35,179 nucleotides of DNA from a virus, in the IMG/VR virus record IMGVR_UViG_3300006754_000062, positions 1 to 35,179 of that record; one strand, given 5' to 3'. A program made the translations under genes and the position numbers. The notes below the pieces were generated by a model. The model was not told the origin of the DNA. It saw only the letters and a program-made list of their open reading frames with translations, and ran no database searches. This document shows, piece by piece, positions 9,568 through 31,106 of the stretch; positions within the stretch are counted from its first letter, which is position 1; every line of letters starts with the position of its first letter.

Positions 9568-9568
9568 A

Positions 9569-9946
9569 TTAAGTTATCGTTATAGTTGATACTGAAACAT
9601 TAGCCCCTCCAATATCTACAAAGGGAATTGTTGAGGGGTATTGTCCTGTTGCAGGATCTTTAGGGCCACCGATAGTGGTCGCTTCCGCTACTGTCTCCCA
9701 ATCTTCTCCTGCAGTTGTTATGCTGTTATGGGCACTTGCAAATTTTTCTATAAACCAATTAGCCCATTTATATTCTTCTGCTATTACTACAGCTCTATTT
9801 AAAGTGATAGTAGCTTTCTTTCCATTGGAATAATAAATAAACAAAGTGGTTAGAGTATTTCTCGTGTCCTGCATAATTCCTACTATACCATCTACTGATA
9901 AGTATGTAGGATATCCTCCTGTTCCTATTATAAAATATCTTCCCAT
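9569..9946 (-). CDS. Small virion-cluster paralogue E (125 aa)
   Basis: A member of the nine-gene KYLRF family that starts MGRYFIIGTGGYPTYLSVDG. The family layout is visible: a short N-terminal strand, a second strand at DGIVGIMQD, a strand pair at TTLFIYYSNGKKATITLN, a helix at EEYKWANWFIEKFASA, and a C-terminal strand ending in TIT. A loop with a Gly/Pro stretch (GGPKDPATGQYPSTIPF) is unique to this copy. The TATCTTTG box ends 5 nt before the ATG and directly follows the terminator of paralogue D, so E and F form their own transcription unit. Role unknown. Confidence 0.65.
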   Translation of the reverse strand: MGRYFIIGTGGYPTYLSVDGIVGIMQDTRNTLTTLFIYYSNGKKATITLNRAVVIAEEYKWANWFIEKFASAHNSITTAGEDWETVAEATTIGGPKDPATGQYPSTIPFVDIGGANVSVSTITIT

Positions 9947-9951
9947 AACTA

Positions 9952-9959
9952 CAAAGATA
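9952..9959 (-). promoter_or_regulatory. Late-type promoter box TATCTTTG before paralogue E
   Basis: Box ends 5 nt before the ATG at 9946 and follows the terminator's T-run. No -33 TTTG. Confidence 0.65.
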
Positions 9960-9961
9960 AT

Positions 9962-9986
9962 AAAAAAAGGGGACTAATGTCCCCTT
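9962..9986 (-). terminator. Rho-independent terminator after paralogue D
   Basis: On the minus strand AAGGGGAC-ATTA-GTCCCCTT followed by a T-run. It separates paralogue D from the E-F unit. Confidence 0.9.
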
Positions 9987-10011
9987 CTTCACCTAAGTAG
10001 CGATTTAGCTA

Positions 10012-10338
10012 TTAAGCTAATGCAATACCTGTAATTTCAGCATCTGCACCTAAATTGTCAACTAAACCTACTAAACTAACATCATATCTAGGGTTAGTCC
10101 ATGAAGTTTGAAGAGCTGCAATTATAGAGTCCTGAACACGGTCTCTAGCTGATACATCATTAGCCGTAAAAGCTACCGCAAAAGTAATAGTTGCCACATC
10201 TGTTGCTGCATCAGAACCTGAGTAAGCAATAGTTACTGTTGTGGTGCTAGCTTGTTCAACGATTATAATACCGTCTACAGCTAATAATTGTGATGTTTCC
10301 CCTGTCGCTGTTATAGGGAATGATAAATACTTTTTCAT
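10012..10338 (-). CDS. Small virion-cluster paralogue D (108 aa)
   Basis: A member of the nine-gene family (MKKYLSFPITATGETSQLL). Strands at DGIIIVEQAS and TTVTIAYSGS are followed by the family helix at SARDRVQDSIIAALQTSW and a closing strand EITGIALA. It is rich in Ala/Thr/Val and low in charge. It has a separate promoter box (TATCTTTG at 10380-10387) and a ~40 nt leader containing the small hairpin GAGA-N4-TCTC. It is followed by a strong rho-independent terminator, so it may be expressed alone at high level, as decoration proteins often are. That role is inference. Confidence 0.65.
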   Translation of the reverse strand: MKKYLSFPITATGETSQLLAVDGIIIVEQASTTTVTIAYSGSDAATDVATITFAVAFTANDVSARDRVQDSIIAALQTSWTNPRYDVSLVGLVDNLGADAEITGIALA

Positions 10339-10379
10339 AATAAAAAAAATTGAAAAATTTTGTGAGACTATTCTCGCTA

Positions 10380-10387
10380 CAAAGATA
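10380..10387 (-). promoter_or_regulatory. Late-type promoter box TATCTTTG before paralogue D
   Basis: Box with ~41 nt leader to the ATG at 10338. No -33 TTTG. Confidence 0.65.
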
Positions 10388-10401
10388 ATAAAATATATTT
10401 A

Positions 10402-10701
10402 CTATGTAGAGATGATATCTCCAATAGCATACTTAGAAGGAATAGGGACATCAATAAAAACCTGAGTATAGGAAGTTTGCTCTGCTCTTATAATAGTATC
10501 GTTAATTATGTCTACCAAAGCTCCATCAAAATCAATACCATTAGCCCCATCTCTTTGAATGTTCCACTCTTCGCTTGCTGTTGCATAAGGAACCGAACTT
10601 GCGTGAATAGTGTTCACGTCAAACAACACCACTAGGTCACATGCATTTGCATTTAATATTCTATCTCCATTCGCTGTCTTAAATCTTAAATACTTAACCA
10701 T
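10402..10701 (-). CDS. Small virion-cluster paralogue A1 (99 aa)
   Basis: Type A member of the family and the third gene of the downstream copy of the duplicated C-B-A cassette. It starts MVKYLRFKTANGDRILNANA. Its counterpart A2 (11386..11694) shares KxLRFxTANGxRxLNxxAC near the start, FDVNxIH in the middle, a family helix with IINDTIIRAEQTSYT, and VDVPIPSKYAIGDII at the end (PSKYALQDLI in A2). The two A copies resemble each other far more than they resemble the adjacent B and C proteins. Function unknown; probably a virion protein from its position. Confidence 0.7.
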   Translation of the reverse strand: MVKYLRFKTANGDRILNANACDLVVLFDVNTIHASSVPYATASEEWNIQRDGANGIDFDGALVDIINDTIIRAEQTSYTQVFIDVPIPSKYAIGDIIST

Positions 10702-10705
10702 CTTA

Positions 10706-11014
10706 TTAAATTACTAAAGTCACTGAATCTATTATTACACCCGGGAAATCTACATCCACATACGATTTAGTATATCCTCCTTGACAGAGCTTCTCTATTG
10801 CATTAGTTATAACATTGCGAGTAGCCTGCTCATCAGCACTAAGACTCCCCCCTGAGGTAAGAATAAGGACCTTGGAACTAGCTGCCGACACGTTCTCTGA
10901 AAATAATAAATACATTCCGCCGGGGGCAGTAATTTCCATTATGCCTGATAAACTCTCAGCTTTTACTAATACCCTCCCTGTAGTAGTTGTATTAAATCTT
11001 AAAAACTTACTCAT
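10706..11014 (-). CDS. Small virion-cluster paralogue B1 (102 aa)
   Basis: Type B member, second gene of the downstream C-B-A copy. It starts MSKFLRFNTTTTGRVLVKAE. It pairs with B2 (11694..12008): both have a GxIEI/GIMEI strand, an N-terminal half with MYLLFSEN or VVIYFGAG, the helix ATRNVITNAIEKLCQGGYTK (B2: TRTRQIFHDALNKLYSTSYT), and a hydrophobic end (VIIDSVTLVI against VINGIVIIV). Spacings to A1 and C1 are 4 and 2 nt, so the genes are one operon. No motif for a known enzyme is present. Confidence 0.7.
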   Translation of the reverse strand: MSKFLRFNTTTTGRVLVKAESLSGIMEITAPGGMYLLFSENVSAASSKVLILTSGGSLSADEQATRNVITNAIEKLCQGGYTKSYVDVDFPGVIIDSVTLVI

Positions 11015-11016
11015 AT

Positions 11017-11382
11017 CTATGTGGCTCTTTGCACTTCAGTTAATACTAAATTAAATACAACACCTGCTGCCCCTAAAGGTATTTTAATCCCATCCGTAGT
11101 TCCTACATCTGCATATACATCATTGTTTCCTTCTGCACATAACTCGGTGATAATGTTCGAAACATGAGAGACTAACTCGTAACCTATAGCTCCTAGATCA
11201 GGAGTAAATGTTAAAAGTATTTGAAAATCTTTAGAGTCTCCATAAAAAAACACTAAGTCAAAATCTCCTCCTCCTGTATTATCAAAAGTTAGCGTTGTCA
11301 TTTTACTTACGTTAATAAGCACATGTTGCGCTGAAGCTGCCGGAGCAAGTGATGGGGAATAAAACCTTAGATACTTATTCAT
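11017..11382 (-). CDS. Small virion-cluster paralogue C1 (121 aa)
   Basis: Type C member, first gene of the downstream C-B-A copy. It starts MNKYLRFYSPSLAPAASAQH. It pairs with C2 (12011..12370): both contain a Gly-rich turn (NTGGGDFDLVFFYGD against NGGAGDTEIRFFMEP), the acidic/aromatic segment LTFTPDLGAIGYELV (C2: MSFAPAFDTEKWDFV), the helix SNIITELCAEGNNDVYADVG (C2: SNEIKDLCRTGNRNVVKDIG) and an extended C-terminal strand region. The C type is longer than A and B by an extra C-terminal hairpin. Role unknown. Confidence 0.7.
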   Translation of the reverse strand: MNKYLRFYSPSLAPAASAQHVLINVSKMTTLTFDNTGGGDFDLVFFYGDSKDFQILLTFTPDLGAIGYELVSHVSNIITELCAEGNNDVYADVGTTDGIKIPLGAAGVVFNLVLTEVQRAT

Positions 11383-11385
11383 TAT

Positions 11386-11694
11386 TTACGGATAGTTTAT
11401 TAAATCTTGAAGCGCATACTTGGAAGGAATCTCAACATCGACTACAGCCTCAGTATAAGAGCCTTCAGCCGCCTTTATAATAGCATCATTAATATATCCT
11501 ATCAGCTCGCCATCAAACGAATCACCGGTTGCGGCAACACGCTCAAGTTTTCTAACCACTAATGTACCGATAGTATTGGTGGGAACATATTCAAAATGTA
11601 TTTCATTTACATTAAACCTTTTAATAATAGTGCATGCCTCGACATTTAATAGTCTCACTCCATTAGCTGTATTAAATCTTAAAAACTTTATCAT
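11386..11694 (-). CDS. Small virion-cluster paralogue A2 (102 aa)
   Basis: Type A member, third gene of the upstream C-B-A copy. It starts MIKFLRFNTANGVRLLNVEA. It shares its beginning, its middle (FNVNEIH) and its end (VEIPSKYALQDLI) with A1, which lies three genes downstream. Its start codon overlaps the end of B2 by one base. Compared with A1 the loop around residues 45-65 differs, as expected of a surface-exposed variable segment in a duplicated virion protein. Confidence 0.7.
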   Translation of the reverse strand: MIKFLRFNTANGVRLLNVEACTIIKRFNVNEIHFEYVPTNTIGTLVVRKLERVAATGDSFDGELIGYINDAIIKAAEGSYTEAVVDVEIPSKYALQDLINYP

Positions 11695-12008
11695 TATACT
11701 ATTATTACTATACCGTTAATAACTGTATCAGGCCACTTTAATTCTACTATATTATTTGTATAACTCGTAGAGTATAATTTATTGAGCGCATCATGAAAGA
11801 TTTGTCGGGTTCGAGTCGCATTAGTTTGAACCGTTGAGCCTGCTCCAAAATATATTACAACATTACTCGTTCCATTAGGTTCTTCTAAACATGGTATAGT
11901 AACCTGTGTCTCACTATCAATTTCTATTAAGCCCACCCAATATTGAGCACTCAAAAGCATCTTCCCTTGGTTGTCTGTTTCTATTTCTAAAAACTTGTTA
12001 TCTATCAT
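11694..12008 (-). CDS. Small virion-cluster paralogue B2 (104 aa)
   Basis: Type B member, second gene of the upstream C-B-A copy. It starts MIDNKFLEIETDNQGKMLLS, with two extra residues before the KFL core. It matches B1 in the helix region and in the hydrophobic C-terminus (see B1). It lies 2 nt after C2 and overlaps A2 by one base, so the cassette is tightly coupled. No recognised domain. Confidence 0.7.
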   Translation of the reverse strand: MIDNKFLEIETDNQGKMLLSAQYWVGLIEIDSETQVTIPCLEEPNGTSNVVIYFGAGSTVQTNATRTRQIFHDALNKLYSTSYTNNIVELKWPDTVINGIVIIV

Positions 12009-12010
12009 AT

Positions 12011-12370
12011 CTATCCTCTATTTATATCTACAAAAGAACACTCATGTACAACACCCGAACTATCTTTCCAAGTAATAGTGCCTGTGCCTTCCACATCTCC
12101 AATATCTTTTACTACATTTCGGTTTCCTGTTCTACATAAATCCTTTATCTCATTACTAAGAAACTGAACAAAATCCCACTTCTCAGTATCAAAGGCGGGA
12201 GCGAAACTCATGGCTACATATTGACTATTGGTAGGCTCCATGAAAAACCTTATCTCTGTATCACCTGCTCCTCCATTATCGGCCTGTATAAAAGAGATAC
12301 GATTCACCGGCAAGAGGTAGTCTTGTATTGCCACCGGCGCAACGCCTCTAAATCTCAAATACTTTTTCAT
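12011..12370 (-). CDS. Small virion-cluster paralogue C2 (119 aa)
   Basis: Type C member and first gene of the array. I place the start at the ATG at 12370 (MKKYLRFRGVAPVAIQDYLL), because the longer frame begins with TTG inside the promoter region and every paralogue starts M-x-x-[KR]-[YF]-L. The TATCTTTG box (12377-12384) ends 6 nt before this ATG, which also favours the shorter form and a leaderless or near-leaderless message. It pairs with C1 along its length. It lies 25 nt downstream of the 249-residue gene. Confidence 0.7.
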   Translation of the reverse strand: MKKYLRFRGVAPVAIQDYLLPVNRISFIQADNGGAGDTEIRFFMEPTNSQYVAMSFAPAFDTEKWDFVQFLSNEIKDLCRTGNRNVVKDIGDVEGTGTITWKDSSGVVHECSFVDINRG

Positions 12371-12376
12371 AATAAA

Positions 12377-12384
12377 CAAAGATA
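12377..12384 (-). promoter_or_regulatory. Late-type promoter box TATCTTTG before paralogue C2
   Basis: Box ends 6 nt before the chosen ATG at 12370, preceded by a run of T. No -33 TTTG. Confidence 0.65.
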
Positions 12385-13224: not shown

Positions 13225-14688
13225 CTATTCTTGGAATAGAACAAAGTTGTTCGCACCCATAGTACAAACACATCTTTCTGATAAGAAGTTTACAGTCATC
13301 GCATCGATATTATCTGTCTTTGCGCCTCCTGCAGAACCTGTCAACCATGTTTTGTATCGTCTGTCTTCAGTTTCTGAAGCACGATATCTAACATGTAAGA
13401 AAGGTCGTTTTGCATTCTTACCTAAGATTTGGTCATAAACAGAAGTAGAACCTGCCGGTACTAATAATCCATTTACTCGACCTGAGCCTGCACCTGTTGG
13501 CAAACCACCTCGCATAGTTGGGTCATTTAAGTATTTCCAATCAGACTTGTAGAAGTCATATCCTCTTCGGAATCCTGTGAATCCTAGATTTAATGCCATC
13601 TCTTCATCATTATCGAAAAGACCATAAGACGTACCACCTGCACCATAAGAGTTTTGAGCTGCTAACATATCGTCAATATCAAAACCGAAGTTTCTGTCAA
13701 CGAATACAACATTCTCCTCAATAGCACCTTGGTTGTCTAGTCTACCAATGATCGCATCCCAATCAGCTAATGCTGTTGGATTACCACCACCCCAAACATT
13801 TCCTCTGTCTCCAACAACAAAGAACACACCTTCGGAACCCATAAAGTTTGCTGTAGCTGCACCTGATAGATTTTCTGCCGGTACTGCCTCAATCATCGAT
13901 GTCTCAAGATAGTCGTCAAAACGTAATCTTGTTTCATGCTCTGATTTTAGATACCATAGGAATCCTGAAGCACCATCTTCTGTGCTAACTTCAATCCATC
14001 CGATTTGAGCCATATCAGAACCACTAACCTCGTAAGTATCTTTTAAGATGATAGGATTATTTTTAAATATATAATCATCAGCTTCTAAAGACCCTACCAT
14101 TCCCGGAGTTCCTTTTCTAAACTCTGAACCGTAGATAAAGATAGTTGTATCAGCGTTACCTGCACCTGTACCTGCTGCTACCTGACCACCCGCTTCGTAG
14201 TAGTCTACAGTAAATGTAGTAGCTGTAGGAACAGCAGTAACAATACCTTTGTTGCTACCTGCACCATTATTAAAGACAATCATTACTGTTTGCCCTACTC
14301 TAATTGATATTTGGTTAGCAGCATTGTATGCTGTTGCCGGAGTAGTAACAATACCTGCACCACCTGCCGGAAATGCACTATCATTCACTGTCCATGTTGC
14401 CTGATTTACTCCTGCTATCGCCACTGTACCACACTGTGTAAACTTAGTATGTAACCGTCCTTGTTCTGCCCATTTTATTTGGTCAGAAATAGAAGGTAAT
14501 TCTGCACCTACTAATCTCAAGAACGATGAGATTGTTCGGTTGCCGTATCTTTCAAATTCCTTTTCATAAGTATCGGGTAGATACTGATTCAAGAAATCGA
14601 AATTCGTAATATAATTGCTAATCGTCGGGGTCTGCGTACTGCTTGGCTGTAAGTCAAAACCCGGCGTAGCTAACATTGAACCTGCCAT
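13225..14688 (-). CDS. Major capsid protein (HK97-fold, crAss-like type)
   Basis: A protein of 487 residues. The start MAGSMLATPGFDLQPSSTQT is followed by NFDFLNQYLPDTYEKEFERY and GNRTISSFLRLVGAELP, a run I recognise from MCPs of marine Bacteroidetes and crAss-like phages. Residues ~85-185 are a Gly/Ala/Thr-rich beta insertion (VGQTVMIVFNNG, GIVTAV, FTVDYYEAGG) that probably forms a surface domain. The second half is typical HK97-fold P-domain-like sequence. It follows the scaffold candidate by 29 nt and ends in a strong terminator. Order terminase-portal-scaffold-MCP supports the call. This is the most likely client of the phage chaperonin, which is inference. Confidence 0.9.
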   Translation of the reverse strand: MAGSMLATPGFDLQPSSTQTPTISNYITNFDFLNQYLPDTYEKEFERYGNRTISSFLRLVGAELPSISDQIKWAEQGRLHTKFTQCGTVAIAGVNQATWTVNDSAFPAGGAGIVTTPATAYNAANQISIRVGQTVMIVFNNGAGSNKGIVTAVPTATTFTVDYYEAGGQVAAGTGAGNADTTIFIYGSEFRKGTPGMVGSLEADDYIFKNNPIILKDTYEVSGSDMAQIGWIEVSTEDGASGFLWYLKSEHETRLRFDDYLETSMIEAVPAENLSGAATANFMGSEGVFFVVGDRGNVWGGGNPTALADWDAIIGRLDNQGAIEENVVFVDRNFGFDIDDMLAAQNSYGAGGTSYGLFDNDEEMALNLGFTGFRRGYDFYKSDWKYLNDPTMRGGLPTGAGSGRVNGLLVPAGSTSVYDQILGKNAKRPFLHVRYRASETEDRRYKTWLTGSAGGAKTDNIDAMTVNFLSERCVCTMGANNFVLFQE

Positions 14689-15902: not shown

Positions 15903-18365
15903 CTACCTCGGTTCAAACTCTGACATATCAAATCCGTCTAAGCTATCCTCATTTGACTCAAACATCTTTGCTGTAGTTGTTTGTTCAAAATTTTCAGGAG
16001 GTAGGTTATTTTTTCTTTGACTTATGAGTTTACTCTGCTGAGTGTTCTGTTGGTTTATTCTTTCCGCTTTAGCAAATTCTCTTTGATCTTCTCTCTGCTG
16101 TAATGCTCTCTCCGATGTGTCTCTTAATTGCATGTTATAACCAAACTCTTTATCCATAAGTTGAGACTTTAACATAGCCTCCTGTTTCATCTTCTCTATT
16201 TCAAAAGCAATCTCTGCTTGCTTTATTTTCATCTTCGATTGAGTTTCTGCTTCCATCTTTTGCATTGCCGCTTGTGCAGCCATCTGCTGACTCTGTTGGT
16301 TTATCTGAGCTTGAGCTTGCATCTTCATCATTTCCTGTTGCTCATCCTTTTCTTCTTTCTTTCTTCTTTTAAGTTTTAAAAGCTGATTGGCAAGTTTTAA
16401 ATTTCTAACCTCTCGTATATCAATAGCATCTTCTAAATTAATATCTTGTTTAGATAAAGCCATTTGTATGTTTTGTTCCAACTGAGCTTTCTCTTCTTCA
16501 TCAGGAGACACGTCAATAAAAATACCGAAGTCATATAGGTATAAATCTTTTGTGTCATTTAATATTGAAACATTATATTTTCCTATTTGATTTACAAAAT
16601 TTTCTTTAAAGTCAGAATACTCTAATATGTCCCCTACCCTATAAGACAATGCTTCTGCTAGACTTCTGTAGATAAATAAACTTCCATCTAATATATGCCT
16701 AGTCGCAGTATTAGAATTTAATGCAGCTAACTTCTGAATACCAACTAAAGAATTAGGATCAGGCGTGCTACCGTCTCTCGCTTCATTTAAGCCGGTTACA
16801 GCCCTAATCATGTTAAGATAATGATTATAGTTACCAATTAACATTTGCGTTTTGCTAGCTCCTGAATTAGAGGTTAGCTGAGTAATTGGAACTTTACCTT
16901 GGTTATAGTCTCCATCTTGAGTATAGCTTCTACCTATCACACTACCTGTTTGAAAATATAATCTCAACGCATCTTCGGGATTGTAAGCATTTCCTGTTCC
17001 TAGGTCTACTTCATTTAATCCGTCTGCATCAATAAACACACCGTCCGGTACAACTCGTGATATAACTTGTTGAAGTTTTAAATGAGTAATCTGAATTAAG
17101 TCAGCAAAAGGAATCATTCGTCTTACCAATGACTCAATAACACCCTTATACATTCTAGGAGCAACAGCAATATAATTAGGAATAGCATATTGATTAGCCG
17201 ACTTAGGTCTTACCATATTCTCTTCCAACTCCCACTTTAAAATAATATTAGTTCCCATAACCATTACGCCGGTATACCACACGTCAATAGTTTTTTCTAC
17301 CTTCTCAAAATTCCCTTCTTCCATCATTTCTTCAGGTGGATCGAATTGATCATCTTTCTCTATCATTTTTTCATTACCATTCTCATTAACCTTCTTCTTA
17401 TAAACAAACTTCTTTGTTGTTTTATAATTAAAATACATAACGGTAGCTGTATCTCTATAGAACATAGAGTCTTGATACATTTGGGCTGTATTAAAATAGT
17501 CATACCAACTTTGACTGTATTGAGATATTTCTTTTAAATCCTCGTTAGTTAGAGTTGGGTCTATTTTCTTTAGCTCAATAATGGGTAATGTCTTTATTTC
17601 ACCCCAATAAAAACAATCTTTAAAGTGTGGGTCTTCAGTGTAACTATATACCACATTAGCAGGATCAACATATTCTACGTTTACCCCGTCTCCTAATTGA
17701 AAGTTATGTTTAGCTACAGCAATTCCCAATACTGTTAAGTCATAATCAAATCTCTTTCTTAGGTCTACATATTTATTATTATCTAATAAAGTGTTAATAG
17801 CCTCCTCTTGAGCTATCTCAATAGCGGGCTTATAGTTAAGTTGCATATATAAGGATAGCTCTTCATCTGAAGCAGGAAGCTCGTTAGGATCCATAGAGTA
17901 AGGGTTAACACCCCCCCTCTTTTGTATAATATCAAGAACAGGTTTCGCAACCATCTGTCCCTCTATCATTCTTTGATAGGTGCTTCGCTTAGATTGAGAA
18001 ATAGCATCTTGAGCATAAGCATCTACTTTAAATAATCTATCAGACATTCCATTAACTACAATGTCAACAAACTTAGGAAGTATAGGAACAGGGGTCCAAT
18101 CTAAATTAAGATAAGATAAGTCTCCATCAATAGCTAATTCGTTTTTGTATTTACCTATTGATTGCTCTCCACGAGCATATAATCTTAACCTATTATATTC
18201 TCCCCATTGATTATAGAATCTACAGCTATTACTGTCTTTGCGAAACCATTCGTATTGTATAGCCTGACCTATTTGAAGCCCAAACTCATCAGTAGCTTTT
18301 TCTGCATCTGAAACAAATTGACTTGGAAACCCTGAGGCTTGTATGTTTATTTTTATATCTTTCAT
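15903..18365 (-). CDS. Portal protein (crAss-like type, 820 aa)
   Basis: A protein of 820 residues whose ATG overlaps the TerL stop (ATGA). The N-terminal half has a helical start and DGDLSYLNLDWTPVPILPKF, typical of the large portal proteins of crAss-like phages. The centre contains EYVDPANVVYSYTEDPHFKD and the long stem-like helix around VRRMIPFADLIQITHLKLQQ. Residues ~670-790 are Gln-rich and charged coiled coil (QQEMMKMQAQAQINQQSQQM), matching the long C-terminal barrel/crown of podovirus portals. It lies between TerL and scaffold. Length and order fit the family well. Confidence 0.9.
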   Translation of the reverse strand: MKDIKINIQASGFPSQFVSDAEKATDEFGLQIGQAIQYEWFRKDSNSCRFYNQWGEYNRLRLYARGEQSIGKYKNELAIDGDLSYLNLDWTPVPILPKFVDIVVNGMSDRLFKVDAYAQDAISQSKRSTYQRMIEGQMVAKPVLDIIQKRGGVNPYSMDPNELPASDEELSLYMQLNYKPAIEIAQEEAINTLLDNNKYVDLRKRFDYDLTVLGIAVAKHNFQLGDGVNVEYVDPANVVYSYTEDPHFKDCFYWGEIKTLPIIELKKIDPTLTNEDLKEISQYSQSWYDYFNTAQMYQDSMFYRDTATVMYFNYKTTKKFVYKKKVNENGNEKMIEKDDQFDPPEEMMEEGNFEKVEKTIDVWYTGVMVMGTNIILKWELEENMVRPKSANQYAIPNYIAVAPRMYKGVIESLVRRMIPFADLIQITHLKLQQVISRVVPDGVFIDADGLNEVDLGTGNAYNPEDALRLYFQTGSVIGRSYTQDGDYNQGKVPITQLTSNSGASKTQMLIGNYNHYLNMIRAVTGLNEARDGSTPDPNSLVGIQKLAALNSNTATRHILDGSLFIYRSLAEALSYRVGDILEYSDFKENFVNQIGKYNVSILNDTKDLYLYDFGIFIDVSPDEEEKAQLEQNIQMALSKQDINLEDAIDIREVRNLKLANQLLKLKRRKKEEKDEQQEMMKMQAQAQINQQSQQMAAQAAMQKMEAETQSKMKIKQAEIAFEIEKMKQEAMLKSQLMDKEFGYNMQLRDTSERALQQREDQREFAKAERINQQNTQQSKLISQRKNNLPPENFEQTTTAKMFESNEDSLDGFDMSEFEPR

Positions 18366-20566
18366 CGTATTAATGTACTTAATCTCCCTGTATTAGTATA
18401 CCTTGCAAAGTTAACACTTATTTTTGATTGTTTCTTTTGAGGTGAATAGAGGTGACGTTGAATGGCCATGATAGCTAATCCCGAGCTAATAGTTGCGTCA
18501 TGTCTAGTTCTACTTGTTATGTCAAATCTTGCCCAATCTTCTAAAGTTTTAGAAAACAACATCATACCCATTTCATCAGAAGGTCGGTACGTAGATTCAA
18601 GATCTAGCCCTACATGCTTTTCAATATAAGACTCTACTGCTGCCGCATGTGCTTGCTTTATATCTTCTGAAGTATTTGGTATACCTCCTAATTCTTTTTC
18701 TGACTTAGAAAGTTTTGCTCTATGTTTGTCCGGCCTGTTCATCGAGAAACCTCTATACCCCCTATTCTTTAAATGATAAAGTAATCTAGGTTTATTATTC
18801 TCAACTAGAATGGGCATTCCATAAAACACACAGGCCATTAATACTTCCTCAAAAAATATCTCTGCCGTTTGAGGTCGTGCAATATATTCTAAAAAGAACT
18901 GATTGCTTGGAGCTTCTTCCATACTAAATGTAGTCAATCCATGTAGAGCTCCGTTTGAACCACCCCCACCTACTGTTCCTGATATATCATAAGAGTCACA
19001 ACCAAACGCACCTATGTGGTCATTTCCCGGAAATTTCATTCCGTTTCTTTCTATAACATTATTCTGTAAATGTTTAGGAGGACTCCAACTAATTAAAAAC
19101 CTTCCCCTTTTATTCGGTGTCCATATAACTTTACTATCTTTAATTCCATTAGCCCACGAAAAAGAACCTCGTGTTAAAAAATGTTCAGGGATTAAAGAAT
19201 CATTATAATCTATTTGTTGATATATCTTAGTTAAATTAAATAAAGATGATTTACTCTCATCTCTAAATGCATGAGACTCTGTTCTTGGAAACTGTCGATA
19301 AAATTCATTCAGAGCATCAGCATCATTTTTTAACGAATCAACCTCTGCTTCCCAATAATCAATAGCTCCATTACGTATCCATTCACCATCAACTCCTTTT
19401 ACTTTTTCCTGTGGCTTACGAAATACAGGCTGTCCATAGACATCTATAAACCCTTCCATATTATACTCCATAGGAATAAATAAAGAATACAATCCACTTT
19501 TAGTTTGTCCATTTGCATTTCGTGAAGACAAACTAGAATCTTCAAATAGTTTCTTGAAATTTTCCCCACCTTTACTTAGTGCATTAGAGGTAGAACCCAT
19601 CATACATTTACCAATAATCTTACTACCTAATCGTAAACAGGTCTTGGTTACTCTCCAATTATTTAAGATGTTATTAGGCTTTATCCATTTACCACTTTCA
19701 TCGTGAACTAACAATAATAATTTCTCCCCATCATAAGAGTTATCGTCAGTGTTCTTCCAATCAATAGTAGTATCTAAACCTAATAGCTCATCATTGGTTG
19801 TGTCATACATATTCTTCTTAGTAATCTTAGCCGCCGGAACTCTAAAGGCTAATTCAGTTTTAGGTTTATCCATCCCATCTTGGATAGGTTTGAAAAAGAA
19901 TGGTAATCGATTTGATATAGGAACAACCTTGTCTGTAAACATTTTCTTTGCATCTGATCCGGTCTTAGATAATACCCCCACTCTTGAATCTTTTGCTAAT
20001 GTTCCAATATTAACACACTCTGAAGAACCCATATAAGAAAATCCTGAACGTCTAATTTTTAAATAAGTCATTCCAAAACATCTTGAGTCCGCCTTACACG
20101 CTTCCCAAAATAAAAAGAATATTCTATTAGCCTCACGATAATCAGGATACCCTACATCAATACTTGTCCATTGAAGATACATATAATGAGCCCCTGTTAT
20201 ATAGGTAGTAACTCCTTTATTAATAAACCATTCCCCGTACTCTCTTTTATCAAACTCTCCCTCAATATAATCTACCCACCTATTCTTAAAAGCAGAGTCC
20301 ATTGTGTTCCATTGAAAGATAGAGTTGATTTTAGAAAGCTGTTTAGGTAGCTCGTGACGTTGCCAATATTGTTTATCTTTAGGAGTTTTCTTTTTAGGCT
20401 TAATATACAAGGGAAGACCTATTCTTAATCCTGAGACATCTATAATATCTCCAACCTTTCCTGACTTAGAGATATTAACGAAGTCATACTTTTCATTATA
20501 CCCATACTTCCATGAAGAAGCTTTATTCTTTCGTGATAAAACTCCCTTGGGAATATAATCTTGCAT
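18362..20566 (-). CDS. terL: Terminase large subunit (packaging ATPase-nuclease)
   Basis: A protein of 734 residues from the ATG at 20566 (MQDYIPKGVLSRKNK). A longer frame begins with TTG at 20644 but lies inside the upstream gene, so I reject it. The ATPase half has a deviant Walker A around residues 172-177 (RRSGFS), Walker B at ~283-290 (LLLLVHDE, with D289 E290) and a coupling motif GSTSN at ~324-328. The nuclease half has an RNase H-like acidic set: D524 in GAFGCDSYD, E589 in PILVENN, and D690 in RTRHDATIS. It couples ATP hydrolysis to DNA translocation at the portal. The long form and motif variants are those of crAss-like TerL. Confidence 0.93.
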   Translation of the reverse strand: MQDYIPKGVLSRKNKASSWKYGYNEKYDFVNISKSGKVGDIIDVSGLRIGLPLYIKPKKKTPKDKQYWQRHELPKQLSKINSIFQWNTMDSAFKNRWVDYIEGEFDKREYGEWFINKGVTTYITGAHYMYLQWTSIDVGYPDYREANRIFFLFWEACKADSRCFGMTYLKIRRSGFSYMGSSECVNIGTLAKDSRVGVLSKTGSDAKKMFTDKVVPISNRLPFFFKPIQDGMDKPKTELAFRVPAAKITKKNMYDTTNDELLGLDTTIDWKNTDDNSYDGEKLLLLVHDESGKWIKPNNILNNWRVTKTCLRLGSKIIGKCMMGSTSNALSKGGENFKKLFEDSSLSSRNANGQTKSGLYSLFIPMEYNMEGFIDVYGQPVFRKPQEKVKGVDGEWIRNGAIDYWEAEVDSLKNDADALNEFYRQFPRTESHAFRDESKSSLFNLTKIYQQIDYNDSLIPEHFLTRGSFSWANGIKDSKVIWTPNKRGRFLISWSPPKHLQNNVIERNGMKFPGNDHIGAFGCDSYDISGTVGGGGSNGALHGLTTFSMEEAPSNQFFLEYIARPQTAEIFFEEVLMACVFYGMPILVENNKPRLLYHLKNRGYRGFSMNRPDKHRAKLSKSEKELGGIPNTSEDIKQAHAAAVESYIEKHVGLDLESTYRPSDEMGMMLFSKTLEDWARFDITSRTRHDATISSGLAIMAIQRHLYSPQKKQSKISVNFARYTNTGRLSTLIR

Positions 20567-20579
20567 AAGAGTATATAAT

Positions 20580-20861
20580 TTATTTTGATCTTCTTTCCGC
20601 AAATCCTTGTTTTGTTTGTGTTTTATCTGCACCCTTGCTTGCAATCTCTAAGCTCTCTTCTTCAGAATCTATTCTATTTAATATTTCAAAAGCATCAAAG
20701 ATGGCTAGCTTTTTAGTCGCCGCAGCATTTTTTAATCTATCCGCAGCCAACTCATCTTCAGGGTCAGGTTTTATAATTTCTTCTTTAGCAACTTTAATTA
20801 ATTGTCTAACCGCTTTCCTTCCGGCTTTTATAATTTCTAATTTTATTTCTTTTGAATCCAT
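20580..20861 (-). CDS. Small helical protein before TerL (terminase small-subunit candidate)
   Basis: A protein of 93 residues from the ATG at 20861 (MDSKEIKLEIIKAGRKAVRQ). The upstream extension reads into the neighbouring gene and is rejected. The sequence is all-helical and charged, with ADRLKNAAATKKLAIFDAFE and a following acidic run DSEEESLE. It ends 13 nt before TerL. A short helical DNA-binding or oligomerising protein here is the natural candidate for the terminase small subunit. I see no clear helix-turn-helix, so the call rests on position. Confidence 0.6.
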   Translation of the reverse strand: MDSKEIKLEIIKAGRKAVRQLIKVAKEEIIKPDPEDELAADRLKNAAATKKLAIFDAFEILNRIDSEEESLEIASKGADKTQTKQGFAERRSK

Positions 20862-20874
20862 ATTGTTTTTAATT

Positions 20875-21441
20875 TTATAGAACCACCGGTATTTGATGGT
20901 CATATATTCTATACAACAACTCTCCATCTACCTTAAATTCATATTCCATATTAGGATTAAACATAACTCTATCACCTTTCTTTACTCCTTGTTTTTTTAA
21001 ATACTCATTAGGGTATTTCATCTCACCTACCAATGGCTCAAACCTAACATTCTTATGAAAATGATAATCCTGTTTAGTAGGAATGGGTTTAATAAAACAA
21101 TACCTATCATAAGGTTTCCATTCACCGTCTTGCTTATAAAGAAAGAATTGTTCGCCATCAATTAAAAAGGTGTTCTCTCTAAAGAAACTCCTTCCACTTT
21201 TCTGTCTACCATACATATCATTATAATATTTAAAAACATTATGATGAACCAATAAAGTATCCCCCTTCTTTATAGGACCTTTATACCTCAGGGGAGTTTC
21301 AATTACTATAGCTTCCCTATTAGAAAACTTATGGTCTTCTTCCGAAGAGCTTACTAAAAACTCAACACCTCCTATATTTTTTTTATTAGCATACCGTTGA
21401 TTCCCTACCGGTTGTACTAAAAAGTCTGTTGGTGATTTCAT
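20875..21441 (-). CDS. Tandem GroES-like protein (two fused cpn10-type barrels)
   Basis: A protein of 188 residues. Residues 1-108 align by eye to a GroES barrel: strand FLVQPVG, a loop ending in IGGVEFLV (compare GGIVL of GroES mobile loops), REAIVIETP, then KKGDTLLVHHNVFKY, then FLIDGEQFFLYKQD. Residues ~109-188 repeat the pattern without a mobile loop: DRYCFIKPI, VKKGDRVMFNPNMEYEFKVD, then GELLYRIYDHQIPVVL, which mirrors the end of GroES. It overlaps the neighbouring 73-residue gene by 4 nt (ATGA) and lies just upstream of the terminase genes. A co-chaperonin or assembly role is inferred. The tandem fold is a pattern judgement and would be settled by structure prediction. Confidence 0.7.
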   Translation of the reverse strand: MKSPTDFLVQPVGNQRYANKKNIGGVEFLVSSSEEDHKFSNREAIVIETPLRYKGPIKKGDTLLVHHNVFKYYNDMYGRQKSGRSFFRENTFLIDGEQFFLYKQDGEWKPYDRYCFIKPIPTKQDYHFHKNVRFEPLVGEMKYPNEYLKKQGVKKGDRVMFNPNMEYEFKVDGELLYRIYDHQIPVVL

Positions 21442-21659
21442 TCAAAATATATATTATATTCTACCGAGATAGGCATAGTGTCTGTGAACTCTTTCCACAA
21501 TACAACCTCTCCCTTTTTTTCTATCCAAATACGAATTGACCCACCTTCATTTTTAATTAGGTGTATGTTGTGTGAGCCGTTCAACACCTCTTGCCCTACA
21601 ATGTAGTGCATTGCCCCTGACTTATAATCAGGTCCTACTGAAATTTTTCTTATATCCAT
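21438..21659 (-). CDS. Conserved small phage protein (73 aa)
   Basis: A protein of 73 residues. It begins MDIRKISVGPDYKSGAMHYI and continues VGQEVLNGSHNIHLIK, an all-beta pattern I recognise as a recurring small protein in marine phages, usually located near terminase or fibre genes. No enzyme motif or membrane segment. It overlaps the tandem GroES-like gene by 4 nt, so the two are probably translated together. Function unknown. Confidence 0.7.
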   Translation of the reverse strand: MDIRKISVGPDYKSGAMHYIVGQEVLNGSHNIHLIKNEGGSIRIWIEKKGEVVLWKEFTDTMPISVEYNIYFE

Positions 21660-21661
21660 TT

Positions 21662-22279
21662 TTATAAAATATTATTTATCATATACATTAATTCTATTTC
21701 CCAATACCCTTCTCCTACTATCCATCCCGGGTTTGAACCTACATTAGGATGAAGAGCAATATTATTAAAAAAGTTGTTTTGAGATTGAGTAGTGTAGTTA
21801 TAGCTTGACCCGCCGGTTCGTGCTAATCGGGTTACTTGAGTTGTAGTGCTAGTAAACTCATTTTGAGTCATTGGAGGAAAAAATGGGTTTGTAGAAAATG
21901 CTGCTGCCGTAGGATAATATCCACTTAGACTTAACTCTTCCGCCGCACCCACCACAAAAGGATTAGCAGGATTAGTGACTACATTTTTAAACGTGTTCAT
22001 CCATCGGGCCATTACAGTATACCATTCTTGCACTCCCAACATGGGAAGTAAGAAAATAGGATTACCATAAGAAGAAGCTAATATCTGAGCCTCACTAATA
22101 ATAAATTTCTCTATCTTCCAAGGACAAATAGCTTTGCATTGCAAATCTCCCAACCGTATGTTTTTAGTTTTGCGACTTCCTCCATCGGAACTTATCAGCT
22201 TATCATCTTTTATTAAAACCTCTTGCCTTTCGGCAAGCATACTAATATGTATCTCATCATTCTTATGTAGAGTAGTCAT
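21662..22279 (-). CDS. Fibre-like virion protein Y2
   Basis: A protein of 205 residues, second Y-type member of the duplicated X-Y cassette. The N-terminal ~45 residues (HISMLAERQEVLIKDDKLI, then KTKNIRLGDL) follow the anchor pattern of the whole group: short Ser/Ile strand, DxLIGTD-like turn, TKNF-like strand. The rest is beta-rich and aromatic, with VVTNPANPFVVGAAEELSLS and a closing GWIVGEGYWEIELMY that is almost the same in Y1. It is probably a short virion fibre or appendage subunit with a shared virion-binding N-terminus and a variable outer part. That role is inference. Confidence 0.7.
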   Translation of the reverse strand: MTTLHKNDEIHISMLAERQEVLIKDDKLISSDGGSRKTKNIRLGDLQCKAICPWKIEKFIISEAQILASSYGNPIFLLPMLGVQEWYTVMARWMNTFKNVVTNPANPFVVGAAEELSLSGYYPTAAAFSTNPFFPPMTQNEFTSTTTQVTRLARTGGSSYNYTTQSQNNFFNNIALHPNVGSNPGWIVGEGYWEIELMYMINNIL

Positions 22280-22281
22280 CC

Positions 22282-22884
22282 TTAGAAGCTAAATAGTTGA
22301 TAGGTAAATTGAAATTTCATTGGCATAGTTCCTTGAACAGAATCACTTCCTGCAGGCAACACTCCCATTAACATAGCTTTATTAGCATCGGCAAGGCTGC
22401 CTGTAATTTGTCCTGTCGCCGGACAAGCAAAACTCTGAGTACAAAAACTTCTACCATCATAAAAAAATACAGGGACCATTGCATAAAGTTCTAGGCCGCT
22501 CATCCAAGGAGTTGCTCCCACCATTCCTGTTCCATCGTCAAGACCTATTACAAGCTCACTTAACCCCCCATAAGTATATTGAGTTGGAGGAGCTAAATTC
22601 GGATTCAGTTGCCCGTAGCTAGATATCGTAATTTGTAAAGGAATAATAACCACATTATTTCCTTGGGCAGGAAGTAGCACTAAAGGTTTTGTTTTTATAT
22701 TTCTAAGAATAGTAGGGTCATCAATATAGTGTTCTATATATCTCCATCCCCACACATAACTAAATACATCTTCTACTTTAAAGTTCTTAGTTAAATTAGG
22801 AGGTGAAGAATTTGCTTCAGTCCCCACCAATAGCTCATCACCTGTGATATTGGTATCTATATTGTATGTACTTATTTTTGCCAT
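22282..22884 (-). CDS. Fibre-like virion protein X2
   Basis: A protein of 200 residues, second X-type member. It starts MAKISTYNIDTNITGDELLV and continues NLTKNFKVEDV, the anchor pattern. The middle (TKPLVLLPAQGNNVVIIPLQ) corresponds to the X1 segment TTPFQLVPAPGLNKVVSAL, and the ends match (MPMKFQFTYQLFSF against RPVKVMLQYQILDF). The outer part has an insertion with three Cys not found in X1. It lies 1-2 nt from its neighbours on both sides. Confidence 0.7.
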   Translation of the reverse strand: MAKISTYNIDTNITGDELLVGTEANSSPPNLTKNFKVEDVFSYVWGWRYIEHYIDDPTILRNIKTKPLVLLPAQGNNVVIIPLQITISSYGQLNPNLAPPTQYTYGGLSELVIGLDDGTGMVGATPWMSGLELYAMVPVFFYDGRSFCTQSFACPATGQITGSLADANKAMLMGVLPAGSDSVQGTMPMKFQFTYQLFSF

Positions 22885-22885
22885 A

Positions 22886-23518
22886 TTATACTAACATTTC
22901 GCTTTCTCTATACATTAATTCAACTTGCCAATAACCATCTCCTGCTATCCATCCCGGAGCTCCTACTATATGCGGCCCTAAAGCAATAGCAGTTGATTGA
23001 CTCGTAGGGAGAGCATCATCCCATTGAGTAAAGGTGGTTATCTGTGACACTCCAAACGGATCCCACCTCACCATCTGAGTGGTAGGGTTCGTTATTTCAC
23101 TTTGGGTTAAGTCTTTAAAGGGTGCATTATTCCACCAACCCCCGGCCATTAAATTCCAATATCCTAGTTTTAAATCATCTCCTGCGCCACACACAAAAGG
23201 GTTGGCAGGATCAGTAACAACATTAATAAACATATTAGCAAATATAGGACTAAACTCATAAAACTTATTCAAGCCTAACGATGGCAATAAGATAACCGGA
23301 CTAGCAATACTCGTTGCTAAAACTTGCCCTTTTGAAATAGTAAACTTTCCTATCTTCCATGGATTTAAAGCATACTCTCTCAAATCTCGAGGAAAAAAAT
23401 TCTTTGTCTTTAAAGTATCCTCATCTGTTCCTATCAATTTATCAAATGCCACCACTTCCTCCGTAAGAGTAGCAAGCATGCTAATATGGACCTTTTCATC
23501 TTCATGCGTAGTTGTCAT
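22886..23518 (-). CDS. Fibre-like virion protein Y1
   Basis: A protein of 210 residues, first Y-type member. Anchor: KVHISMLATLTEEVVAFDKL, IGTD, KTKNF. Then a Trp/Phe-rich beta body (KIGKFTISKGQVLATSIASP, VTDPANPFVCGAGDDLKLG) and a C-terminal GWIAGDGYWQVELMY. Its start overlaps the X1 stop by 4 nt. The body also resembles the X type in the segment LLPSLGLNKFYEF (X1: LVPAPGLNKVVSAL), so X and Y are probably old paralogues of one fold. Confidence 0.7.
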   Translation of the reverse strand: MTTTHEDEKVHISMLATLTEEVVAFDKLIGTDEDTLKTKNFFPRDLREYALNPWKIGKFTISKGQVLATSIASPVILLPSLGLNKFYEFSPIFANMFINVVTDPANPFVCGAGDDLKLGYWNLMAGGWWNNAPFKDLTQSEITNPTTQMVRWDPFGVSQITTFTQWDDALPTSQSTAIALGPHIVGAPGWIAGDGYWQVELMYRESEMLV

Positions 23519-24069
23519 ACTCCAAAGTCTAAGATTTGATACTGCAACATTACCTTTACCGGACGAGTCCCTTTAGTAGCATCTACCCCCCCAAACGCAC
23601 CAAACTGAAAGGGTAAATTATACTGAGAGGAATTATAAAGAAAAGCAGGAACACATCCTGTAGGATAATAACCATAACTCTGTCTAGTTGCTGCATTTAA
23701 AGGACCAAGACTATTTACCCAAAGAGTGCTATATACTCCACCGCCTCCATCAAGACCTGCCTGAATATTTGAACTTCCAAAATCATAATCATCCCCACCC
23801 CCTGTGCTCACCGACATAAATAAAGCACTAACAACTTTATTTAAACCGGGTGCAGGAACTAATTGAAATGGGGTTGTTGCAAGAGCACGAATAACAGCAA
23901 CATCTGTTATAACATACTCTACAGTCTGATACCCATTCATATAATCTACAAGCTTATCTACAGAAAAGTTTTTAGTTAAATTAGGTAGGGTAGAATTACT
24001 GTCCGTCCCTACCAACAAATCATCTCCATGGATATTGTTGTCTATATTATATGTGCTAATCTTGGCCAT
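23515..24069 (-). CDS. Fibre-like virion protein X1
   Basis: A protein of 184 residues, first X-type member. It starts MAKISTYNIDNNIHGDDLLV and continues NLTKNFSVDKL. The body is Gly/Ser/Tyr-rich (SVSTGGGDDYDFGSSNIQAG), and it closes with TRPVKVMLQYQILDFGV. The same first 10 residues recur in X2. It lies 1 nt after the mini-fibre gene. It is probably a short surface appendage subunit; this is inferred from the shared anchor and beta-rich body. Confidence 0.7.
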   Translation of the reverse strand: MAKISTYNIDNNIHGDDLLVGTDSNSTLPNLTKNFSVDKLVDYMNGYQTVEYVITDVAVIRALATTPFQLVPAPGLNKVVSALFMSVSTGGGDDYDFGSSNIQAGLDGGGGVYSTLWVNSLGPLNAATRQSYGYYPTGCVPAFLYNSSQYNLPFQFGAFGGVDATKGTRPVKVMLQYQILDFGV

Positions 24070-28844: not shown

Positions 28845-29276
28845 ATGAATCGAGATTACCTAAAGTATTGGAGGGTTATTAGTTATTTTATAAAATCAAA
28901 ATACAACCTCAAACAAGCTGAACTAGATACACTTTTATTTTTAAATTCAGAATCATATTTCTCTAAAGAAAAGTTTAAAGAGTTTAACGAGCTTCTTAGT
29001 TGGAACAAAAGAAGATTTGATATTCTCCTTAGAGATGGATGGATAGAAGTGTTTAGAAAAAGATCAGGCGTACATAAAACTTTATATCAACTGTCTTATA
29101 AATCACAAAGAGTTTTAAAATCTATCTACGATAAACTAGAAGGAACAGAGATTCCCGATAGCCAACACAATCCTATGTTCCATAGGAACGTCTCATATAC
29201 TGATAAGGTATATAGGAATATGATAAAAGAAATGAATAAAACTATAAGACAACAACGACATTCTTCTCAAGAATAA
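28845..29276 (+). CDS. Winged-helix (MarR-like) regulator candidate
   Basis: A protein of 143 residues from the ATG at 28845 (MNRDYLKYWRVISYFIKSKY). The longer frame begins upstream with a hydrophobic, AT-rich stretch that I treat as untranslated. The layout is winged-helix: KYNLKQAELDTLLFLNSE, FSKEKFKEFNELLSWNKRRF as the recognition region, then the wing DGWIEVFRKRSG with HKTLYQLSYKSQRV, and a C-terminal NVSYTDKVYRNMIKEMNKTI. This is a pattern I recall as conserved in phages of marine flavobacteria. It is the only plus-strand gene inside the minus-strand block, divergent from the tiny basic genes and convergent with groES, whose 3' end it overlaps by 35 nt. Probably a transcription switch. 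Confidence 0.75.
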   Translation: MNRDYLKYWRVISYFIKSKYNLKQAELDTLLFLNSESYFSKEKFKEFNELLSWNKRRFDILLRDGWIEVFRKRSGVHKTLYQLSYKSQRVLKSIYDKLEGTEIPDSQHNPMFHRNVSYTDKVYRNMIKEMNKTIRQQRHSSQE

Positions 29277-29499
29277 TAGTATACTGCTCGTTATTTATCA
29301 TAACAGTATTCCCTGAGCCTTTATCATAGTATATAATATCATCAGTCTTTATAACCTCAACATCATTACCCGGTTTTATAACTTTACCTTTCTGATATCT
29401 GAATCCGCTTACATCTTCTTTAGATAATAACAACCCACCTTTGGTGGTTACTTGTTCTTCTATCTTATTAATTATAATATATTTTCCTATTGCTTTCAT
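29242..29499 (-). CDS. groES: Phage GroES co-chaperonin, roof loop missing
   Basis: A protein of 85 residues, shorter than the usual ~95-97. N-terminal strand MKAIGKYIIINKIEE; mobile loop at ~14-30 with the hydrophobic GroEL-binding tripeptide in KGGLLLSKE; then YQKGKVIKPGNDVEVIKTDD. The ~10-residue roof hairpin found between these strands in bacterial GroES is absent. The barrel closes with IIYYDKGSG, TVMINNEQYTIILEKN and a hydrophobic end VVVVL. It caps the GroEL ring during folding. The ATG overlaps the groEL stop by 4 nt, and groES is downstream of groEL, the reverse of the usual bacterial order. It is the likely partner of the adjacent phage GroEL. Confidence 0.9.
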   Translation of the reverse strand: MKAIGKYIIINKIEEQVTTKGGLLLSKEDVSGFRYQKGKVIKPGNDVEVIKTDDIIYYDKGSGNTVMINNEQYTIILEKNVVVVL

Positions 29500-31106
29500 T
29501 CTGTGTCGTATGAACGTGCCATAGTTACAATGGCATCAGTGCTTAATATAGTTACAGCTACAGAGACAGCATTTTGTAATGCACTCTTAGTAACTTTCAT
29601 AGGGTCAATAACACCCATCTTAATAAGGTCTCCGTATTTCTCAGACTTAATATCATACCCATAACCCGATTCCATTCCTGTATTATATATCTTACATGGA
29701 TTCAGTCCGGCATTATGAAGTATTTGATTAAGAGGAGCTGTCATTGCTTTAGATAAAATTGCGGAAGCAATTTTTTGCGAAAGAGTTTTCCCTTTTGTCA
29801 TCACTCCATTATTGGCAACCTCCTGTAATGCTAACCCTGAGCCGGGTAATATACCTTCGGTAAGTGCTGAACGAACTGCACACACAGCATCATCAACCCT
29901 GTCATACAACTCTTTTTGTTCTAGGTCAGTATTCCCTCCCACATATATAACACCCACACCACCGGTAAGTGAAGCGATACGTGACATGATAAACTCTCTC
30001 TCAGTTTTATTATTAGATAGCTTATGCGATCCCCATAGCTCTTCTACTCTTTTATTAATCTCCTCAGTGTTCTCTCTTTCGGACGAGAGGATGATACTAG
30101 AGTCTCGCCCAACTATCACCTTGGCCGCTCTCCCTAAGTCGGAGAAGTTTATAACACTCAAATCATCCCCTGTCTTTTCTGAGAAGTAGGTTGCTCCTAC
30201 TGACAATGCTATATCTTGCATTAACTCATGTTGCTTGTATCCAAAGTTAGGTGGCTGTATAACACATATCTTTAAATTCCTTTTCATCACATTAGCCGCT
30301 AATGTGTTTAATACATTATTAGCACAAGGAGAAATAATAAATAAAGACTTGTTGTCAGATATAATTGGTTTTAGAATCTCCTCGATGTTTAAGATATTAT
30401 TTATCTCAGCATCACAAACAAGAATATAAGGATTATCTAAAATACACTCATCTTTCTTTTGGTTATTAATAAACAAAGGATTTGAATAACCCCTATCAAC
30501 CTTTATACCATCGGTACTCTCATAATAAGTCTCAGTACCTTGGGCTTTCTCGACAGTAACAATACCATTCTTACCTACCTCATTGTAGATTTTAGATATG
30601 ATGTCACCAATAACAGGATCATTATTGGCTGAGATAGTAGCTACACTTTTTAATTTTGATTTGGTTACAGGCTTACTCTTCTTCTTTAACTCCCTAACAA
30701 CCTCATTGGTAATATTAACTAACTCTCTTAAAACCTCAGTCTTATTATGCTTAGGATTTTTTTCAAACATCTCCATAGCACACTTAACAATAGCCTCAGT
30801 TAATACAATCGCTGTCGTTGTTCCATCACCCGCAGTAGTAGCGGTTCTATCCGCCGCCTCTTTCATCATCCTAACCGCAAGGTTTTCCACAGGGTCCATC
30901 AAGTCAATAGACTTAGCCACAGTAACACCGTCTTTAGTTACTGTTAAACTATGTGTATGATGAGGTGATTCTATAAGGACCGTATTTCCACTCGGACCAA
31001 GGGTGCTCTTTACAGCAGTAGATATTTTATTTATTCCCCTTATTAATTTATCCCTTCCTTCTTTTCCAAAGTTTAACTCCTTTGGTGAGTATCCTGTTTG
31101 ATTCAT
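29496..31106 (-). CDS. groEL: Phage chaperonin GroEL
   Basis: A full-length protein of 536 residues (E. coli 548). Equatorial ATP site: STLGPSGNTVL at ~34-44, KDG with D59 (as D52), AGDGTTTA with D94 (as D87), and RVDDAV with D406 (as D398), so all catalytic acids are present. The usual GGG after ~residue 420 is GSG (ILPGSGLAL). The apical domain is complete (DRGYSNPLFINNQK, NILNIEEILKPII, then ANVMKRNLKICVIQPPNFGY). The C-terminus ends MARSYDTE with no GGM repeats. A TTTG-N20-TATATTTG promoter lies in front. Predicted to fold phage or host proteins under ATP control, probably including the capsid protein. Confidence 0.95.
   Translation of the reverse strand: MNQTGYSPKELNFGKEGRDKLIRGINKISTAVKSTLGPSGNTVLIESPHHTHSLTVTKDGVTVAKSIDLMDPVENLAVRMMKEAADRTATTAGDGTTTAIVLTEAIVKCAMEMFEKNPKHNKTEVLRELVNITNEVVRELKKKSKPVTKSKLKSVATISANNDPVIGDIISKIYNEVGKNGIVTVEKAQGTETYYESTDGIKVDRGYSNPLFINNQKKDECILDNPYILVCDAEINNILNIEEILKPIISDNKSLFIISPCANNVLNTLAANVMKRNLKICVIQPPNFGYKQHELMQDIALSVGATYFSEKTGDDLSVINFSDLGRAAKVIVGRDSSIILSSERENTEEINKRVEELWGSHKLSNNKTEREFIMSRIASLTGGVGVIYVGGNTDLEQKELYDRVDDAVCAVRSALTEGILPGSGLALQEVANNGVMTKGKTLSQKIASAILSKAMTAPLNQILHNAGLNPCKIYNTGMESGYGYDIKSEKYGDLIKMGVIDPMKVTKSALQNAVSVAVTILSTDAIVTMARSYDTE

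Follow-up and report, generated by a model that had tools for sequence, protein, structure and literature searches.

A tandem Cpn10 protein encoded beside the terminase gene in phages of Bacteroidota

Genes around the tandem ORF

The window, that is, the whole stretch of 35,179 nucleotides analyzed here, is a 35-kb viral record from a relative of the flavobacterial podovirus-like phages, and its source virus infects Bacteroidota bacteria. Positions 20875-21441 are filled by an ATG-started ORF of 188 aa on the minus strand, and stops occur throughout the plus strand. Relatives are encoded along its whole length, and the 73-member alignment contains invariant columns in the N-half and C-half alike; hence, the ORF is not a chance reading frame. 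An earlier note had described the product as two successive cpn10-type units encoded beside the terminase, and had counted three GroES-like barrels in this phage. The relevant genes are as follows.

20875..21441, minus strand: tandem Cpn10 (double GroES) protein, 188 aa, whole ORF (PHROG 13932, AlphaFold, CPN20 match)
21438..21659, minus strand: 73-aa protein, its gene immediately upstream and sharing 4 bases with the tandem ORF; no Pfam or PHROG family match
20580..20927, minus strand: 115-aa ORF between the tandem gene and TerL (ORF list)
18362..20644, minus strand: terminase large subunit, TerL (phrog_6681, 7e-176)
15903..18365, minus strand: portal protein (phrog_6547, 1.8e-146)
13225..14688, minus strand: virion structural protein, probable major capsid protein (phrog_13704, 1.3e-96)
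29242..29499, minus strand: single GroES, 85 aa, third barrel (Pfam Cpn10, 2.7e-10, 40.6 bits)
29496..31106, minus strand: phage GroEL, 536 aa (Pfam Cpn60_TCP1, 7.1e-54)

Both the neighboring TerL and the separate GroES bore out the earlier description. The phage GroEL aligns over its full length to solved GroELs and keeps the equivalent of GroEL D398, and the single GroES is eight residues short in the part that forms the roof of GroES. The GroES and GroEL genes overlap at 29496-29499, and the tandem gene and the 73-aa gene likewise overlap by 4 bases. The real start of the 115-aa ORF is probably further in; a similar-sized gene occupies its place in MW202828 and phi19:3 and is absent in Panino, elemovirus, and phi38:1. 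Across 176 loci with at least 1.5 kb of downstream sequence, TerL starts no more than 1.2 kb downstream of the tandem gene in 175 and about 1.45 kb downstream in the remaining one. A homologue of the 73-aa protein, possibly a partner of the tandem protein, is encoded directly upstream in 167 of the 176.

Elsewhere in the window, nine small minus-strand ORFs of 99-125 aa lie at 9214-12379 between the head and tail genes, and several of them are paralogous (for example, 10402-10701 and 11386-11694, 48% identity). At 21662-24069, also on the minus strand, there are two alternating duplicated gene pairs, of 205/210 aa (43% identity) and 200/184 aa (37% identity), probably tail or fibre related.

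The tandem gene sits among virion genes, and its product might be supposed to be a structural component of the virion that has taken on a GroES-like fold. We consider this most improbable: virion MS/MS of phi40:1 listed the portal, capsid, tail, and other proteins encoded on either side, but not gp88-gp90, of which gp89 is the tandem protein (one data set, in which absence is not proof). In phi38:1, GroEL is produced in infected cells and was also detected in a virion preparation (PMC13288928).

Fold and anatomy of the two halves

The profile of PHROG 13932 ("co-chaperonin GroES"), a family that includes phi19:3 gp101, phi38:1 gp89, and elemovirus gp30, covers residues 1-180 of the window protein (1.9e-23), which is therefore a member of this family. 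Pfam Cpn10 (PF00166, curated cut-off 21.1 bits) matched only the C-half when the whole protein was searched, with a score under the cut-off (E 0.0084, 16.6 bits), and the C-half searched alone also stayed under it (E 0.003). The C-halves of relatives exceeded the cut-off (phi19:3, 34.2 bits; phi38:1, 25.4 bits). Pfam found no Cpn10 match in the N-half, where the top matches were unrelated and under the cut-off, and none of the N-halves tested passed. The single-GroES profile PHROG 3188 matched the N-half of an elemovirus member at 3e-4, and the phi19:3 N-half gave a weak profile score of 12.1 bits against a shuffled maximum of 7.6. The identity of the N-half thus rests on its fold together with weak profile scores. 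The earlier note had proposed searching the two halves separately; profile-profile comparison with GroES supported the C-half (probability 84), whereas the N-half was weak (26). The two halves compared with each other gave only 3, so an internal duplication cannot be shown from sequence. In short, the C-half is clearly Cpn10 in relatives by sequence and the N-half is so mainly by fold.

AlphaFold, supplied with an alignment of 72 IMG/VR relatives, predicted two Cpn10-type barrels for the whole chain (pLDDT 87.6, pTM 0.79); neither another fold nor an unrelated family emerged. When the whole model was compared with the PDB by Foldseek, the top match was 7ekq_R (E 1.3e-4), followed by GroES chains. 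This chain is the Chlamydomonas CPN20 co-chaperonin subunit, a tandem Cpn10 found in a ClpP complex. VIA-align superposed it on 161 residues at 4.2 A (Z 10.4), spanning model residues 1-188. With this match and with both halves Cpn10-like, the predicted protein has the head-to-tail pair of Cpn10 units that characterizes Cpn20; the earlier note had likewise read two successive units. Because the whole model matches CPN20 over residues 1-188, the prediction suggests that the two barrels may be placed roughly as ring neighbors. In BFVD, the model matched the phi18:3 cpn10 protein (3.7e-14).

The predicted C-half matched GroES over 79 residues (Z 9.5, rmsd 2.4 A), and the N-half modeled alone (pLDDT 88.3) matched it at Z 8.0 and 3.1 A. 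For the N-half, the top 16 PDB rows were exclusively Cpn10, gp31, or CPN20 chains at Z 6.1-8.0; values of 6-8 are attainable through common architecture, and the weight lies in Cpn10 filling all the top rows. The best rows outside the Cpn10 family reached 4.8 for the C-half and 5.5 for the N-half (dehydrogenase GroES-like domains, 5.5 and below). In the predicted models, both halves thus have the Cpn10 beta-barrel fold. Their parts are located as follows.

21127..21441, minus strand: N-terminal barrel, residues 1-105 (modeled alone; top 16 PDB rows)
21316..21405, minus strand: N-barrel segment resembling a mobile loop, residues 13-42, GG-V-E-F-L-V occupying 24-30 (low model confidence, conservation)
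21169..21237, minus strand: extra N-barrel hairpin, residues 69-91, right after invariant H66-H67-N68 (conservation, predicted strands)
20878..21120, minus strand: C-terminal barrel, residues 108-188, with a shortened loop at 122-133 (GroES match; Pfam E 0.003)

The earlier note had pointed to a mobile-loop-like IGGVEFLV in one unit and none in the other, and this agrees with our analysis. IGGVEFLV corresponds to residues 23-30, within the stretch that AlphaFold modeled with the least confidence (residues 21-40, mean pLDDT 69 and 68). Between P11 and V46, the N-barrel carries a 34-residue segment with G-G-[IV]-[ED]-[FL]-[IVL], in which 100% of 73 relatives have a hydrophobic residue at position 28 and 97% have one at position 29. 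From its residues, this segment is similar to the mobile loop of GroES (G-G-I-V-L), except that E or D, an acidic residue, takes the place of V in the I-V-L of GroES. In the C-barrel, P119-G139 encloses 14-20 residues, mostly 18, without a conserved tripeptide. By our own reading, this loop is shorter than in GroES, and the window protein thus differs from Cpn20, which has a mobile loop in both units. The phi19:3 stretch LIYIPEDNKEK aligns to GGIVLPDTAKEK of T. thermophilus, so that the C-barrel loop seems intact too in phi19:3 and the ancestral tandem form may have had two loops. The GroES-like ending VKKGDRVMFNP...DHQIPVVL forms the C-terminus, again as described before.

H66, H67, N68, and G78 are invariant in the 73 relatives, and HHN with the following hairpin (predicted strands 72-74, 80-82, and 86-88) is the most conserved part of the N-barrel. 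By hand comparison, the N-barrel is about 18 residues longer than GroES at this hairpin, which together with H66-H67-N68 lies near the position of the GroES D-G-Y-G turn. We take that turn to face the folding chamber, and a role of HHN and the hairpin in client contact is our guess on this ground.

Distribution and company of the tandem gene

By tblastn, relatives were found in 85 phage records, covering Flavobacterium elemoviruses, Cellulophaga Callevirus and Baltivirus, Maribacter Panino, and MW202828. Two scans of IMG/VR found relatives encoded in at least 596 and at least 560 stretches. In a relative with 98% identity (8001-8520 of its stretch), the tandem gene is broken into two parts in different frames, one coding for residues 1-140 and the other for 153-188, which is a frameshift or sequencing error.

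A cellular home of the gene was considered and rejected. The 23 bacterial loci all lie in metagenome bins of mixed taxonomy and are TerL-linked wherever there is room to see; they are therefore phage sequence. A tandem locus of this phage type is also found at about 866-882 kb in the 1.05-Mb record CP070801.1, titled as a Candidatus Aenigmatarchaeota chromosome; there, phage DNA has likely been misjoined or misbinned. Four metagenome bins with tandem loci also hold several Cpn10 matches in open frames of 130-216 aa, especially the Maricaulis bin (142-160 aa), suggesting other extended GroES forms.

Of the records sampled, 25 were selected for having the tandem gene: 20 carry both GroEL and GroES, two carry GroES without GroEL (phi19:3 and phi13:2), and three, which are fragments of 50-54 kb, carry neither. 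Thus, a single GroES is present in every sampled tandem record that is not a fragment, and only one genus is without phage GroEL. All 15 records chosen by the single GroES carry GroEL, and 14 carry the tandem gene; the apparent exception was dismissed, as that record ends inside TerL. Gundel_1, in which a related portal and TerL are kept, lacks GroES, GroEL, and the tandem gene alike. With GroES and the tandem gene but no phage GroEL, phi19:3 and phi13:2 are a natural case for use of host GroEL. The phi19:3 gene set would also suit a regulatory role, in which the protein would cap or slow the host GroEL, or else a protease ring, instead of aiding folding; CPN20, the top structural match, sits on ClpP in 7ekq, and few loops could mean weak or partial capping. 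Most members, however, encode their own GroEL, which points to productive folding, and we regard such a role as very unlikely.

Protein distances of the tandem protein track those of GroEL (r 0.93) and the portal (r 0.92) about equally, so that no partner is singled out; for the portal, a partial r of 0.69 remains after removing TerL. This remaining correlation is compatible with a morphogenesis factor that has given up cooperation with GroEL and acts instead on the terminase, the portal, or capsid assembly, where its barrels would provide a scaffold or a docking module. The nearly constant TerL and 73-aa neighbors point the same way, as do the lost C-barrel loop, the diverged N-loop, and the fact that the most conserved stretch, HHN with the hairpin, is not a GroES feature. 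We nevertheless hold this explanation to be unlikely: Gundel_1 has TerL and portal but is without all three of tandem, GroES, and GroEL, the N-barrel retains a low-confidence segment that resembles a loop, and the distances follow GroEL equally well. The earlier note had left the choice between a lid and assembly away from GroEL. Since the tandem gene keeps company with GroES and GroEL, the lid is better supported and the latter is less likely.

A proposed GroEL lid and its known counterparts

The gene set and the fold together make a component of the GroEL lid, of whatever stoichiometry, the best reading and a probable one; the set of GroEL, GroES, and tandem genes, the lack of all three in Gundel_1, and the absence of gp89 from the phi40:1 virion list speak for it. 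The two Cpn10 barrels fused head to tail would help close the GroEL chamber, here that of the phage GroEL, over clients that would be late head-morphogenesis proteins. The mobile-loop-like segment of the N-barrel would dock on the GroEL apical domain, and the C-barrel, its loop lost, would fill a ring position without docking. T4 gp31 and gp23 are the precedent for a capsid protein as folding client; from this and the gene position, the capsid protein appears the natural candidate client. On the other side, the tandem gene lies with TerL, several kb from GroEL and GroES in a different gene block, and the missing Pfam match of the N-half and the acidic residue in its loop would count against a lid role.

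Two barrels per chain cannot sum to seven; the likeliest ring would thus consist of three tandem chains and one single phage GroES, giving seven barrels and four docking loops. We propose this specific arrangement tentatively. The single phage GroES alone could build a full heptamer, and the count of four is suggestive only, as a lid of four tandem chains would give four loops as well. In chloroplasts, active rings can be built from Cpn10 and Cpn20 together, a combination that C. reinhardtii requires, and a minimum of about four working GroES subunits of seven is quoted in an Arabidopsis study (PMC4242682, PMC5780408). A stronger form, more doubtful still, would make the lid of three tandem chains and one single GroES obligate: the plastid solution to the seven-fold problem would have evolved independently, with loops at the four-loop minimum and three loop-free barrels offering a client-specific chamber-facing surface.

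A lid of tandem chains only is a possible alternative, though less likely than not: the chamber would be closed either by four chains, of which one barrel stays outside the ring, or by three chains that leave a gap, and the single GroES would serve a separate general GroEL cycle. This would amount to a late, client-specific lid swap, and as a variant of the lid reading it shares part of the probability given to the best explanation. In T4 infection, gp31 replaces GroES. The separate encoding of the tandem and GroES genes fits a tandem-only lid, and homo-oligomers of Cpn20 function with seven-fold chaperonins (PMC4242682, PMC5780408). Against it, a single GroES accompanies the tandem gene in every non-fragment record, even where phage GroEL is lacking, which hints that both are needed.

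The link to GroES was already known from PHROG 13932 and from several GenBank names (co-chaperonin GroES/cpn10). Within the literature searched, which excluded most subscription journals, no text was found on the tandem build in phages, the one-loop state, or the link with a single GroES. The protein looks like a real, widespread phage counterpart of Cpn20. To our knowledge, co-chaperonins of the tandem kind have been described in plastids and apicoplasts; if hundreds of Bacteroidota phages encode one too, this would be a second occurrence, and it would show independently how a lid with an even number of barrels can fit a seven-fold chaperonin. There is a natural series, from phi19:3, which lacks phage GroEL and has two segments resembling loops, through the window lineage with one loop and its own GroEL, to Gundel_1 with none; it makes directly testable how many loops a lid requires and whether lids select their clients. 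Material exists, since tandem genes also occur in cultured phages.

Like Cpn20 (Cpn21) of chloroplasts and apicoplasts, its top structural match over both barrels, the window protein joins a pair of Cpn10 barrels head to tail within some 190 residues and coexists with single Cpn10s and Cpn60. In contrast to Cpn20, it is viral, with very low sequence identity to Cpn20 (19% on aligned residues), has lost the mobile loop of the C-barrel in this lineage, carries the extra conserved N-barrel hairpin, and is encoded with terminase; active oligomers with GroEL, like those of Cpn20 with Cpn60, may be expected from genomic co-occurrence. T4 gp31 is likewise a phage co-chaperonin of the GroES type, whose fold both halves match (Z 6.7-7.3), and has the link to head assembly that we propose for the tandem protein. 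However, gp31 is a single barrel that forms a homo-heptamer and uses host GroEL, whereas the phage tandem consists of two fused barrels and usually comes with phage GroEL and a single GroES. The single phage GroES (PHROG 3188) shares the fold and the genomes, but it is one 85-aa barrel with a clear G-G-L-L-L loop, and its gene adjoins GroEL. From the other members of PHROG 13932, which occupy the same place before TerL, the window protein is no different in kind, although the family name mentions neither the tandem build nor the lost loop.
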